Origin: Merdimmobilis hominis
Lineage (GTDB): Bacteria; Bacillota; Clostridia; Oscillospirales; Ruminococcaceae
Direction: 5' to 3'
Assembly: GCF_900104615.1 (NCBI RefSeq)
Contig: NZ_LT629939.1
Span: 1,349,001-1,413,000, forward strand
Length of the DNA: 64,000 nucleotides
Positions 2,594 through 9,003 of this stretch are shown in pieces; positions within the stretch are counted from its first letter, which is position 1, and each line of letters begins with the position of its first letter. The notes beneath the pieces are model-generated. The model was not told where the DNA came from. It saw nothing but the letters and a program-made list of their open reading frames with translations, and did not search any database. A program made the translations under genes and the position numbers.

Positions 2594-3757
2594 TTAGAAT
2601 GTACCGGTCAGCTTGTAGATGCCGAACTCCCGGTGGCCCAGGCTTTCCGCCTTGGTGACCTGGCCATTGCAGACGTCTGCAACCATTTGGAACAGCTCTT
2701 CGCCAATTTCCTCCACCTTGGCGCCCTCGGTGATGATGCGCCCTGCATTGATGTCGATGTTGTCGCTCATCTTGCGGTAGGTGGCGTCGTTGCCGGTGAT
2801 TTTGATGACCGGGGCGATGGGGCTGCCGGTGGGGGTGCCGCGGCCGGTGGAGAAGATGACCACCTGGGCGCCGCCAGCCACCATGCCGGTGATGGAGTCA
2901 ATGTCCTGGCCGGGGGTATCCATAAAGTAGAGGCCCTTTTTCTCCAAGGGGAGAAGCTCCGCATAGTTGAGGGCGCCTTTGAAGGGGGCGGTGCCCGCCT
3001 TATACATGCAGCCCAAGGATTTTTCCTCAATGGTGGAGAGGCCGCCTTCCTTGTTGCCGGGGGTGGGCTGGCCGCTGCGCAGGTCCTCACCCAAGGCGAT
3101 GGCGCGGTTCTCCACATTTTTTACCATGTCCAGGAACTTCTGTTTCTGGTCCTCGTCCTCAAACCGGGCAGCCAGCAGGTGCTCAGCGCCGATGACCTCG
3201 GTGGTCTCGCTCAAAATGCTGCTGCCGCCCTCGGCGATGAGACGGTTGGAGCAGTAACCGATGGAGGGGTTGGAGGCCAGGCCGCTGGTGGGGTCGGAAC
3301 CGCCGCACTCCAGGGCCATGATGATCTCGCTCATATCAAACTCCACCCGCTTCTGCATAGAGAGGTCGCGGGCCATCTGGGCGGCATACAAAGCGCCCTT
3401 GGCGATGGCGGGCAGGGTGCCGCCCTCCTCCTGGATGACCACCACTTCCACCCGTTTGCCGGTGGTGCGGATCTCCTCCGCCACAGCCCGGGCCTGGATG
3501 CCGTCACAGCCCAGGCCGACTACCACACAGGCGCCCACGTTGGCATTTTTGCCAAAGCCTACAATGGTTTGCTGGGTGAGGGCCAGGTCGGAGCCGATTT
3601 GGCAGCAGCCGTGCTGGTTGGGGATGGCGATCGCCCCGGGGACCTGAGCGGCGATCTTCTCGGCGGTGTCGGTGGCACAGACCGAGGTGGGGATAATCAA
3701 TACATGGTTGCGCACGCCGAAATGGCCGTTTTCACGCTGATAACCCATCAATTTCAT
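2594..3757 (-). CDS. UxaA/SuyB-family dehydratase or lyase, large subunit
   Basis: This 387-residue protein is the C-terminal catalytic part of the altronate/galactarate dehydratase family. The N-terminus (GYQRENGHFGVRNH) and internal Cys/Gly-rich motifs such as NQHGCCQIGSD and ECGGSDPTSGLASNP are family hallmarks. In E. coli UxaA an N-terminal SAF domain is fused; here it is a separate gene 14 bases upstream. That split layout is found both for altronate dehydratases and for (2R)-sulfolactate sulfo-lyase SuyAB, and the sequence alone does not separate them. No uronate or sulfonate pathway genes are nearby. An AGGGAGG ribosome site precedes the ATG at 3757. Confidence 0.85.
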   Translation of the reverse strand: MKLMGYQRENGHFGVRNHVLIIPTSVCATDTAEKIAAQVPGAIAIPNQHGCCQIGSDLALTQQTIVGFGKNANVGACVVVGLGCDGIQARAVAEEIRTTGKRVEVVVIQEEGGTLPAIAKGALYAAQMARDLSMQKRVEFDMSEIIMALECGGSDPTSGLASNPSIGYCSNRLIAEGGSSILSETTEVIGAEHLLAARFEDEDQKQKFLDMVKNVENRAIALGEDLRSGQPTPGNKEGGLSTIEEKSLGCMYKAGTAPFKGALNYAELLPLEKKGLYFMDTPGQDIDSITGMVAGGAQVVIFSTGRGTPTGSPIAPVIKITGNDATYRKMSDNIDINAGRIITEGAKVEEIGEELFQMVADVCNGQVTKAESLGHREFGIYKLTGTF

Positions 3758-3771
3758 AGCGGTTTCCTCCC

Positions 3772-4056
3772 TTATGCCTGTTGCTGTTTGTCGCCGCGGC
3801 CGCGGGTGCTTTCCAGGTTGTGGACATGCACATGGTCGCCGGGATGGATGTCCTCGGTGGCATCGCCGATGACTTCGCCGTATTTGTAGCAGTATTCGCC
3901 TTTTTTGATTTCTGCGACCGCCATCTTGTGGAAGACGGGGATATCGCTTTGGACGGTGTAATTCTTACCCTCGAACTCGATGATCTCGCCTTTTTTCAGA
4001 GGGCGCAGGCAGGTGACCAGGTTGTCTTTTTCACTGACGTGAAGGACTGCATTCAT
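3772..4056 (-). CDS. SAF-domain small subunit of the UxaA/SuyA-family lyase
   Basis: This 94-residue protein is a stand-alone SAF domain (PLKKGEIIEFEG, HKMAVAEIKKGE, YGEVIGDATEDIHPGDHVHVHN), the substrate- and metal-organising half of altronate dehydratase-type enzymes. The final HVHVHN motif is typical. Start is the ATG at 4056 because an AGGAGG lies just upstream; a longer in-frame ATG at 4101 has no such site. It is translated directly before the large subunit and the two products presumably form one enzyme. Confidence 0.85.
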   Translation of the reverse strand: MNAVLHVSEKDNLVTCLRPLKKGEIIEFEGKNYTVQSDIPVFHKMAVAEIKKGEYCYKYGEVIGDATEDIHPGDHVHVHNLESTRGRGDKQQQA

Positions 4057-4210
4057 CTGGGGTTCCTCCTTTTTCAAAATACATGTAATATAGTATATCA
4101 TGGCGAAAAAAGTTTGTATAGAAAAGAACTGACCAAATTTTCAGCCCAGGATTTATATGAAATTATTATGATGAGAATTTTTTGTCTTGCCTGCGGCTGC
4201 GGGGATTTTC

Positions 4211-5729: not shown

Positions 5730-5818
5730 AGAAAAATCCTCCCGTCTCTAAATTGTTAGCCCCAGTATATTCCTTGAAGCCCACTCCAAGTCAAGGGGAA
5801 TTTTTCTGGGAACACAAA

Positions 5819-5851
5819 AAGTCGTCCGCCTCCTGTGGAGGTGGACGACTT
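5819..5851 (-). terminator. Intrinsic terminator of the M20/YfcC operon
   Basis: A 15-bp stem with one G-U pair and a 3-base loop, followed on the minus strand by TTTTTGTGTT. It lies just beyond the stop codon at 5864. Confidence 0.85.
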
Positions 5852-5863
5852 GGCTTTTTTGGC

Positions 5864-7036
5864 TTACAGGCCCATAGTCTGCCGGAACTCGGCGGTGATA
5901 TCCGCCAGGAGCTGGGGGTTTTCAATGATGTCTGCCGCGGTGAGGGCAAAGGCCCGAACGGTCTTGGCCATCTGCTCGTTAGCAAAGTCGGTAACCGAAG
6001 CGGCAGCAAACTCCACGGTGTGGGAGTTGCAAGCCTCTTGGGAGATGGCGAAGTGAGGGTGGATCATGGGGCAGACCTGGCTGACGTTGCCGGCGTCGGA
6101 AGAGCCGGAGCCGGGCCGGGCGGCGATGACTTCCGGCACGCCGCAGTCCAAAAGGCGCTGGGTGAACTGGTTGGAGAGGGTCTCATTGGTGACCATGTTG
6201 TCGTAGATGGCCTCAAAATTGGAGATCTTCACCGTGACCCCGTTGGAGAGGGCGGCGGCCTGGGCGCAGTTCTTCACCTGTTCCACCAGCTTGTTCAGGT
6301 AAGGCTTGGTGGCGGCGCGGACATAGAAGTCGGCGCGGGTGTAGTCAGGAACCACATTGGCCGCTTTGCCGCCGTCCAGGATGACGCCGTGCACTCGGGC
6401 GTCGCTCTGGAAATGCTCCCGCAGGGCGGCGATGTTGTTGAACAGGCTGATTACCCCATGCAGGGCATTGGCACCTTTCTCCGGTGCGGCAGCGGCGTGG
6501 GCAGTCTGGCCGAAGAACTCAAACCGCAGGGGCACGATACCCAGGGAGGTGCCGCTCTTGTAGTATTTATCGGAGGGGTGAGCCATCATAGCCACATCCA
6601 CCCCGTCAAAGCCTCCGGCGTTGACAATGGCAACCTTGCCGCCGTCCGTCTCCTCCGCGGGGGTACCGAACACGATGACCGTGCCTCCCAACTGGTCGAT
6701 CATCTCCCGCAGGACGATGCCGGAACCAGTGCTGGTGGCCCCCAGGATGTTGTGGCCACAGCCGTGGCCGATGCCGGGCAGGGCGTCATACTCGGCCAAA
6801 AAGCCGATGGTGGGGCCGGGTTTTTGGGAGGAATAGGTGGCCTTAAAGGCGGTGGGCAAACCGCAGAAGGGGCGTTCTACCGTGAAGCCGTATTTTTCCA
6901 GCAGGGCGCAGTGGGCGTCGGCGGCAAAGGTCTCCTGATGGCCCATTTCCGGATGGTCGTGGATGGATGTGCTCAGGGCTACCAGCTCGGGCTGCAAATC
7001 CTGGGCGAGCTTGGCGACTTGATCAAAATGGTTCAT
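5864..7036 (-). CDS. M20 family amidohydrolase (AbgB-like)
   Basis: This 390-residue M20D metallo-amidohydrolase should remove an acyl or amino-acyl group from an amide substrate in the cytoplasm. Visible metal ligands and catalytic residues include the GHGCGHN motif (Cys93, His95) and the glutamate pair Glu127-Glu128 (TPAEETDGG). The AEYDALPGIGHGCGH block is typical of p-aminobenzoyl-glutamate hydrolase-type enzymes. It is the second gene of an operon with a YfcC-like transporter under a lysine riboswitch, so an N-acyl- or peptide-linked lysine or diaminopimelate is a plausible substrate. That assignment is inference from context only. Confidence 0.85.
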   Translation of the reverse strand: MNHFDQVAKLAQDLQPELVALSTSIHDHPEMGHQETFAADAHCALLEKYGFTVERPFCGLPTAFKATYSSQKPGPTIGFLAEYDALPGIGHGCGHNILGATSTGSGIVLREMIDQLGGTVIVFGTPAEETDGGKVAIVNAGGFDGVDVAMMAHPSDKYYKSGTSLGIVPLRFEFFGQTAHAAAAPEKGANALHGVISLFNNIAALREHFQSDARVHGVILDGGKAANVVPDYTRADFYVRAATKPYLNKLVEQVKNCAQAAALSNGVTVKISNFEAIYDNMVTNETLSNQFTQRLLDCGVPEVIAARPGSGSSDAGNVSQVCPMIHPHFAISQEACNSHTVEFAAASVTDFANEQMAKTVRAFALTAADIIENPQLLADITAEFRQTMGL

Positions 7037-7078
7037 GAAGGTACTTCCTTTCCATCTATCAAAAGGGTGGATATTCGG

Positions 7079-8491
7079 TTAGAAGGGGCCGTAGCCAAAC
7101 ATGTTGGCCGCCACAATGAACACGCCGCCCAGGGCAATCCAGATGCCCACCAGGGGGCCGGCGAATTTGAGCCATTTTTCATAGGGGATCTTGGCCATAG
7201 CAAGGATGGCCATCATAGTGCCGGACACCGGCAGGATGGAGTTGGTGAAACCGTCGCCAAACTGGAAGCAGAGGACTGCCACCTGGCGGTTGATGTGGAG
7301 CACGTCGGCCAGCGGGACCATGATGGGCATGGTGGCCGCAGCTTGGCCGGAACCGGAGGGGATGAAGAAGTTGGTCAGGATCTGCACTGCATACATACCC
7401 AGCACCGAGATGGCAGAGGGCAGAGAGGCGATGACGCCGCTCATGGCGTGGACGGCGGTGTCGATGATCATGCTCTGTTCCATTACGATGAGGATGGCGC
7501 GGGCGATACCCACCATGATGGCGCCGTTGGCGATATCCCGGATACCGGTCTGGAAATGCTTGACGATCTCATCGGGGGTGAAGCCGTATACAAGGCCGGA
7601 GACAATGCCCATGCCCAGGAAGAGGGCGGCGATCTCACTGACATACCAACCCAGCTTCATGACGCCGTAGACCAGGAAGACAAACCCGGCGACCACGATA
7701 GCGAGGACGATCTTCTGGCGGCCGGTGATCTTCTCCACCTGGGAGAGGTCGATGCCGTTGCCCCGCTCTGCCAGTTCGGTCTCATACATCATGCCGGACT
7801 GTGGGTTGAGGCGGACCTTTTTGCCGTACCGCATCACATAGAAGGAGGTGACAGCCACCAGCACCACCCAAATCAAAATCCGGTAGGCGACGCCGGAGAA
7901 CATGGGCAGTTCCGCCAGGCCCTGGGCAACGCCAATGGTGAAGGGGTTGATGACGCCAGCGCAGAAGCCGCAGGCCGCGCCCAGCACCGCCAGGGAGGTG
8001 CCCACCATGGCGTCGTACCCCAGTGCCCGGGCCAAGGCGATGGTGATGGGGACAAAGACCACGTTTTCCTCCGACATGCCGAAGGTGGCGCCGCCGATGG
8101 AGAAGATGGCCAGGACTGCGGGGATCATCAGGTTTTCCTTGCTGCGGAAGGCCACAGCGGCCCGCCCGATGGCGGATTTGATGGCGCCGGTCTCGGTGAT
8201 GATGTTAAAAGAGGCGGACACAATCATGATGAAGAAGGTGATGGAGGCGGCGGCGGTCATGCCCGTGGGGAATGCCAGCAGGAACTCCATGACGCCGATG
8301 GGGTTGCTCTCCACCCGGGTGTAGGAGTTGGGGTCGACCACGGTGCGGCCATCCACCTGGATGCGCGCGTACTCGCCGGCGGGGACAAAGTAGCTGCACA
8401 GGGCTACAATCAGAACGATGCAGAACATCAGAACGACCGGATGAGGGAATTTAAACTTTTTCTTAGTAGCGGAAGGGTTTTGGTTGCTCAT
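7079..8491 (-). CDS. YfcC/ArcD-like 12-TM transporter under lysine riboswitch control
   Basis: This 470-residue, highly hydrophobic protein belongs to the YfcC family (DcuC/ArcD-related permeases of C4-dicarboxylates and basic amino acids). Typical segments are GGATFGMSEENVVF, the GAACGFCAGVINPFT region, and FFIPSGSGQAAATMPIM near the end. The ATG at 8491 sits 10 bases from AGGAG; an ATG at 8500 is only 1 base from it and is unlikely. The leader holds a lysine riboswitch and terminator, so lysine or a close relative is the likely substrate. Direction of transport cannot be told. The M20 gene follows 42 bases later. Confidence 0.85.
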   Translation of the reverse strand: MSNQNPSATKKKFKFPHPVVLMFCIVLIVALCSYFVPAGEYARIQVDGRTVVDPNSYTRVESNPIGVMEFLLAFPTGMTAAASITFFIMIVSASFNIITETGAIKSAIGRAAVAFRSKENLMIPAVLAIFSIGGATFGMSEENVVFVPITIALARALGYDAMVGTSLAVLGAACGFCAGVINPFTIGVAQGLAELPMFSGVAYRILIWVVLVAVTSFYVMRYGKKVRLNPQSGMMYETELAERGNGIDLSQVEKITGRQKIVLAIVVAGFVFLVYGVMKLGWYVSEIAALFLGMGIVSGLVYGFTPDEIVKHFQTGIRDIANGAIMVGIARAILIVMEQSMIIDTAVHAMSGVIASLPSAISVLGMYAVQILTNFFIPSGSGQAAATMPIMVPLADVLHINRQVAVLCFQFGDGFTNSILPVSGTMMAILAMAKIPYEKWLKFAGPLVGIWIALGGVFIVAANMFGYGPF

Positions 8492-8589
8492 CGAATTCAT
8501 TCTCCTTATTTTAGAATTAGAAGAATAAAAATTGATGGTGGGCCCTCATTTTTCCCTCGCCCTACCGCCCGCCGACGGGGTTTCCAGGA

Positions 8590-8623
8590 AAAACAAAAAG
8601 GTTGCATCCATCGATGCAACCTT
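8590..8623 (-). terminator. Riboswitch-controlled intrinsic terminator
   Basis: On the minus strand a perfect 11-bp stem (AAGGTTGCATC and its complement) with a GATG loop is followed by TTTTGTTT. It sits between the lysine aptamer and the transporter start, the normal place for the expression platform that stops transcription when lysine is bound. Confidence 0.9.
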
Positions 8624-8650
8624 ACAAAAAACGATTTGTCAGTCATCATC

Positions 8651-8804
8651 GATAGCGCCTCTGCGTTAAGCAGGAGTCTTGATGATATTCTCACCAAGCC
8701 CAGCCGGCCGTTTCACCAAACGAACCGCTTCGGCAGCTTGACCTTTCCCCGAGTTCACCGGATGTCTCCTCCATCGGGTACTGATTCGCGCTGCGCCTCT
8801 ACCA
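8651..8804 (-). promoter_or_regulatory. Lysine riboswitch (L box) aptamer
   Basis: Read on the minus strand, the segment has the conserved L-box blocks in order: GGTAGAGGCGC at the 5' side of P1, the AGTA loop region, TCCGGTGAA, GCTGCCGAAGC, GGCTGGGC, GACTCCTG and the closing GCGCTATC. P1 pairs GGTAG with CTATC. The order and spacing match the five-helix lysine aptamer. A sigma-A promoter lies directly upstream and an intrinsic terminator directly downstream, so the mechanism is most likely lysine-induced termination. Confidence 0.93.
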
Positions 8805-8825
8805 ATTTTTATTATCTTGCCTTTT

Positions 8826-8854
8826 ATCCTAGCACGGGGCTTCCCCTTTGTAAA
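8826..8854 (-). promoter_or_regulatory. Sigma-A promoter of the lysine-riboswitch operon
   Basis: On the minus strand TTTACA is followed after 17 bases by TAGGAT. It lies about 20 bases upstream of the aptamer. Confidence 0.75.
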
Positions 8855-9003
8855 GAGAAAACGGCAAATTTTGAAAAACTTTTTAAGCTATTCTGAATTC
8901 ACCGCAGAAGTTTTCTTTTATGTTGTGAAATGTGACGAATTCTCCTGATTCTTTTTGAATAAAAAGAATCCCCGCAAAGGGGCGGTAAAATGGGCTTTTT
9001 TGG

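Follow-up and report, generated by a model that had tools for sequence, protein, structure and literature searches.

What does a lysine riboswitch control when it stands in front of a YfcC-like permease gene and an M20 amidohydrolase gene? The lysine riboswitch class has been known since 2003, and here we analyse one of its members (an L-box) on the reverse strand of a 64,000-nucleotide stretch of DNA from Merdimmobilis hominis, hereafter the window. We put at roughly 60% the probability that this leader is a variant L-box, with lysine as its most likely ligand, that acts as an OFF switch on a permease-hydrolase operon scavenging lysine. Computation gives the RNA family, the pairing potential of the expression platform, the gene families, the association between box and hydrolase and the lack of a lysA match in the genome.

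Based on an Rfam search, the leader contains a full-length match to RF00168 at 8645-8809 (-), with 84.6 bits (E 1.1e-20) against a gathering score of 30, and the alignment places this aptamer in a variant 'ACUCC' type. Upstream, at 8826-8854 (-), a consensus match identifies a promoter-like site (TTTACA-17-TAGGAT with an extended TG). Downstream, at 8598-8623 (-), a hairpin scan finds the riboswitch intrinsic terminator, which is also present in the MFE structure. Since shuffled sequence of the scanned stretch holds on average 1.0 promoter-like and 0.9 terminator-like sites, about one chance site is expected per scan and both elements count through their position alone. The initial annotation had proposed that aptamer, promoter and terminator lie in the right order, and had pointed to the Rfam Lysine covariance model as a check; the match above the gathering score and the placement of the two sites bear this out. 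The leader as a whole folds with a z of -2.48 relative to shuffles, 2 of 200 being equally stable.

In the fold of a transcript that stops short of the terminator's 3′ arm, AUCGAUG (8647-8653, -), the P1 3′ strand, forms the 5′ arm of an antiterminator and pairs with CAUCGAU (8610-8616, -) within the 5′ arm of the terminator. In sequence, the leader is thus laid out as an OFF switch that would act by transcription termination. While ligand is scarce, the pairing of P1 with the terminator arm would let the operon be transcribed; with ligand bound, P1 would form, the terminator would fold and transcription would stop. When a strict pairing rule was applied to the 32 variant leaders, 17 combined a perfect terminator stem with at least six complementary bases in P1, 4 had the stem with only five complementary P1 bases, and 11 had no perfect stem.

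The window box shares with the canonical lysine riboswitch (RF00168; T. maritima aptamer 3DIL) the whole model, the tested core and the terminator platform, but it differs at the floor of the lysine pocket. According to PMC3764141, G141 takes part there in a G11-G163-G141-A162 purine quartet. Where canonical boxes read G141 U142 ... G160 G161 A162 G163 (T. maritima numbering), the variant reads C141 C142 ... G160 A161 G162 G163, at 8658-8677 (-) with coordinates counted by eye. The window box therefore has C for G141 and C for U142, and lacks the G141 of the purine quartet, a base that is present in all 36 aligned canonical boxes and whose loss the initial annotation had overlooked. With the pocket floor of this variant box changed, that annotation overstated the case in calling control by lysine close to certain.

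The search pattern with which the variants were collected fixes positions 141-142 and 160-163; the pairing of P5 and the ten positions 9-12, 23, 28, 69, 114, 126 and 127, conserved in 32/32 variant and 36/36 canonical boxes, are not. In all 32 variants, P5 starts at C142-G160 and continues inward with A161 left out, giving at least four pairs, and it shows two-sided changes such as U-A to C-G at 143/159. The canonical P5 register yields no stem in any of the 32. From this register we infer that C141 can pair with G162 in place of the purine quartet. Five variant boxes of another family read otherwise at positions 14 and 15, seemingly with an extra base. Seven further variant boxes tested against RF00168 all pass, with 64.7 to 99.1 bits.

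The assignment of the two genes to a YfcC-like transporter and an M20 amidohydrolase holds. The permease (7079-8500, -) belongs to the DcuC/YfcC family (PF03606, 331.4 bits against a gathering score of 23.1), and by eye its more probable start codon is the ATG at 8491, where AAGGAG is better spaced. Against the YfcC equivalog model NF008611 it reaches 345.6 bits, below the curated cut-off of 500. The permease also gives a weak match to Pfam AbgT (36.5 bits), and its best PDB match is an AbgT-family structure (E 4e-4). The AbgT-AbgAB system serves the uptake of p-aminobenzoyl-glutamate; the likeness to the window lies in these weak AbgT matches and in the pairing of a permease with an M20 hydrolase, whereas the window has a DcuC/YfcC-type permease, one hydrolase gene and an L-box in front. 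By this analogy, we propose that the operon may work like AbgT-AbgAB.

The hydrolase gene (5864-7036, -) lies outside the stretch 7079-8854 described in the initial annotation and is followed by a hairpin and T run (5816-5850, -, by eye) that is the probable end of the operon. The protein scores 203 bits against TIGR01891 (cut-off 153.75). Its nearest solved relatives by sequence are S. aureus HmrA (300.7 bits) and PM20D2, a human cytosolic beta-alanyl-lysine dipeptidase (223.7 bits); the next other protein scores 54.4 bits. An AlphaFold2 model (pLDDT 72, from a three-sequence alignment) superposes on HmrA with a Z of 41.9 (rmsd 5.3, 386 residues) and on PM20D2 with a Z of 39.5-40.3 (rmsd 5.3, 377-380 residues); the structure ranked next has a Z of 28.6 (rmsd 6.6, 359 residues). 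Tyr278 aligns by eye with the PM20D2 tyrosine that is mutated in the Tyr314Phe structures. Unlike PM20D2, the window enzyme is bacterial and operon-borne, and it is 33-39% identical to HmrA and PM20D2. Based on profiles, sequence and model, we predict an Xaa-Lys dipeptidase or N-acyl-lysine hydrolase of the HmrA/PM20D2 group. For the activity of PM20D2 we rely on PDB titles and on how a cited paper is titled, and kinship with it would give the hydrolase a substrate class, not a substrate.

Elsewhere in the window, an altronate/galactarate-dehydratase-like enzyme is split at 2594-4101 (-) between one gene for a SAF-domain protein and another for a GD_AH protein. An open frame of 1047 codons (5753-8896, +) runs antisense to the whole operon and most likely reflects nothing more than GC-rich codon use.

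The initial annotation had suggested a search across genomes for L-boxes before YfcC-M20 pairs. A YfcC relative (E up to 1e-60) occurs in 35 of 297 family genomes, our own included, and from these 35 we surveyed 30 loci, each with some 1.5 kb of flanking sequence in both directions, a reach that would miss a more distant hydrolase. An L-box lies just upstream of YfcC in 9 of the 30, and each of these nine has a hydrolase of the PM20D2 type directly downstream on the same strand. We count a neighbour as PM20D2-type at 180 bits or more to the window hydrolase; distant M20 neighbours score 49-87. Of the 21 box-less loci, 4 have a PM20D2-type hydrolase, located upstream; a distant M20 protein lies downstream in 6, and in the other 11 the surveyed stretch holds none. 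The difference (9/9 vs 4/21) gives a p value of 5e-5, which overstates independence since the loci are related. The search model, R1, was built from an L-box alignment that includes the boxes of the window, L040 and L043, so these three match by construction. When named genomes were scanned with the permease, an L-box was found at only one of 22 loci, L063, which we take to be the same genome as L035 and count once.

The hydrolase of one tested canonical-box operon from another genus falls in the same HmrA/PM20D2 group, and one tested distant M20 protein beside a box-less YfcC is ILR1/YxeP-like. An HmrA/PM20D2-type hydrolase also stands beside a box-less YfcC in a Synergistales genome.

A tree of the YfcC proteins, built without L063, L078 and L083, places the four variant-box proteins in one strongly supported clade. 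The five canonical-box proteins group together with modest support (88/57) and sit in another strongly supported clade, which includes the box-less L057. Strongly supported branches thereby force at least two changes of box state. Two separate recruitments of the box types to YfcC are the plain reading of this sequence-based tree, and the same analysis is compatible with a single origin of the hydrolases.

What would such an operon serve? Searches of the Merdimmobilis genome returned no match for lysA, DapF or lysine 2,3-aminomutase. We considered lysine fermentation as the purpose of the operon and rejected it on the missing aminomutase match. The genome keeps dapA (L207, G000:C3 around 89014-89856), and by eye asd- and dapB-like frames adjoin it. 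It has two L-boxes in all, neither of them before these genes; relatives belonging to genus g42 have a canonical L-box in front of asd-dapA-dapB. The second L-box (G000:C3:2289255-2289424; L088 6256-6425, -) is of the same variant type and precedes an operon that pairs an APC permease with Amidohydro_3. About 1.4 kb upstream of it lies a second HmrA/PM20D2-like M20 gene (L088 7809-9176). Most simply, this organism would be auxotrophic for lysine, its pathway no longer under lysine control and its L-boxes retained only on uptake. Across the family, lysA hits occur in 351 of 396 genomes (199 over the curated cut-off). Such a hit is lacking in 6 of 25 variant-box genomes compared to 39 of 371 others; auxotrophy is thus not the rule for the subtype.

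An HmrA/PM20D2-type hydrolase, its association with the L-box and the lack of lysA together point to an operon that recovers lysine from Xaa-Lys or N-acyl-lysine. The YfcC/DcuC-family permease would bring in lysine held in a small amide, such as an Xaa-Lys dipeptide, beta-alanyl-lysine or an N-acyl-lysine, and the cytoplasmic M20 hydrolase would release the lysine from it. Of the roles first suggested for this locus, uptake of a lysine peptide or N-acyl-lysine with subsequent cleavage in the cytoplasm is, given the type of hydrolase, the best supported. The substrate and the direction of transport, like the ligand of the box, are what we infer from these data.

Next, we investigated the spread of the variant. 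The variant pattern, which is exact and so misses diverged variants, matches 27 sites in 26 of 396 family genomes, and a reversed control gives no match. One of these sites (L101, G323) was dropped as a chance match because by eye the rest of the aptamer is absent, leaving the variant box in 25 of 396 genomes and 14 of 126 genera. In a sample of the class, the pattern occurs in 1 of 291 genomes, our own; in a sample of the order it occurs in 7 of 197, our own and six from two other families.

The genes behind the two box types differ. The first gene after the 32 variant sites is an APC permease in 15 cases, Amidohydro_3 in 10, YfcC in 4 and NhaC in 3, and in all 12 of the 15 APC operons that were read further downstream, Amidohydro_3 follows the permease. 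Canonical boxes come from a sample of 90 RF00168 sites, the 30 best-scoring and 60 hand-picked from the next among the matches listed, which is therefore biased towards high scores. It comprises 89 canonical boxes plus one variant (L187, identical to site L096); nine boxes missed by the regular expression were called canonical by eye. Their first genes are asd (66, with L019 and L153 by distant similarity only), NhaC (9), ABC transporters (8, named by eye) and YfcC (4), with two (L015 and L023) having no readable first gene. With these two left out, lysine biosynthesis targets amount to 0/32 for the variant vs 66/87 for canonical boxes (p value = 3e-15, the events not being independent). The variant box is a subtype found so far only on uptake and hydrolysis genes, with the conserved core mostly kept and the pocket floor rebuilt.

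Both types coexist, with different targets, in at least six genomes (G041, G146, G100, G241, G283 and G168). In G100 and G241 (L133, L134), a canonical box precedes YfcC-M20D, and a variant about 2.3 kb away on the opposite strand precedes Amidohydro_3. Downstream of the YfcC-M20D operon of G146, an L-box-like match of 20.7 bits (L090 7567-7690, -) is possibly a decayed or divergent second box.

We favour lysine as the ligand of the variant, since operons of the same kinds stand under canonical boxes elsewhere and the tested core nucleotides are intact. Nonetheless, the lack of any biosynthesis gene behind 32 variant boxes is odd for a plain lysine sensor, and the altered floor together with the clean split of targets may leave room for a different threshold or ligand. 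One version of this idea makes the ACUCC type a distinct class within RF00168, sensing, in place of free lysine, a lysine-containing compound or conjugate or another basic amino-acid derivative. The replacement of G141 and the shifted P5 register in all 32 boxes speak for it, as do the separate targets of the two types in at least six shared genomes, the biosynthesis counts, and the main target, an APC permease for which FrlA (fructoselysine permease) is among the better models (185.5 bits, under its cut-off of 800), paired with Amidohydro_3. We nevertheless hold it unlikely, as the ten conserved positions are unchanged and YfcC-M20D and NhaC operons are under canonical boxes in other genera. 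If it were true, a nested class would control a regulon for scavenging, made up of YfcC-M20D, APC-Amidohydro_3 and NhaC, in Oscillospiraceae and families related to it. Another reading, compatible with lysine scavenging under an OFF switch, is that the rebuilt floor makes no difference to function: the variant would have originated a single time, in front of uptake genes, and its targets would reflect descent and horizontal spread without any shift in sensing. The restriction of the variant to its own family and two others of the order fits this, and so does the share of the APC/Amidohydro_3 module (25 of 32 sites). Against it, the variant is also found on YfcC-M20D and NhaC, yet before no examined asd-dapA, the commonest canonical target; we regard neutrality as possible, at somewhat less than even odds.

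The remaining alternatives concern the proteins. YfcC could be a plain lysine importer or exchanger with the M20 hydrolase riding along as a general peptidase, as the annotation of YfcC as a basic amino acid antiporter would suggest, and canonical L-boxes do also precede transporters (NhaC 9 and ABC 8 of 87 classified). A PM20D2-type hydrolase downstream in nine of nine L-box loci, from two parts of the YfcC tree, argues against a chance passenger and makes this quite unlikely in our view. The hydrolase was also suggested to be an N-acetyl-diaminopimelate deacetylase, with the operon part of lysine biosynthesis. M20D relatives include such deacetylases, and most sampled canonical L-boxes (66/87) precede lysine biosynthesis genes. 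We give this suggestion hardly any credence: DapE/ArgE-type models, none of them specific for that deacetylase, score 41.5, 38.8 and 32.8 bits, far below their cut-offs of 289, 217.6 and 304.2; DapE structures reach a Z of 23.4 against the hydrolase model, compared to 40 for PM20D2; and the genome has no match for lysA or DapF and no L-box before dapA.

The gene arrangement itself is already known. In Clostridioides difficile, a 2024 review (PMC11477304) notes an L-box upstream of CD3100-3099 (yfcC and an M20D amidohydrolase), in the same order as in the window and in an apparent operon. The main text of a 2017 survey of lysine riboswitches does not mention YfcC or DcuC. Rare members of riboswitch classes with changed ligands are described as 'snugglers' in PMC7266159 and PMC10043782, whose parts on lysine name none for this class, and we found no description of a variant lysine riboswitch in the open-licence literature. 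What looks new here is therefore a variant riboswitch subtype with targets of its own.

For the proteins, lysine scavenging under an OFF switch would give two poorly defined families, the YfcC-like permeases and the HmrA/PM20D2-like hydrolases, a testable joint role. The APC permease and Amidohydro_3 targets of the variant would likewise gain a lysine-related substrate.
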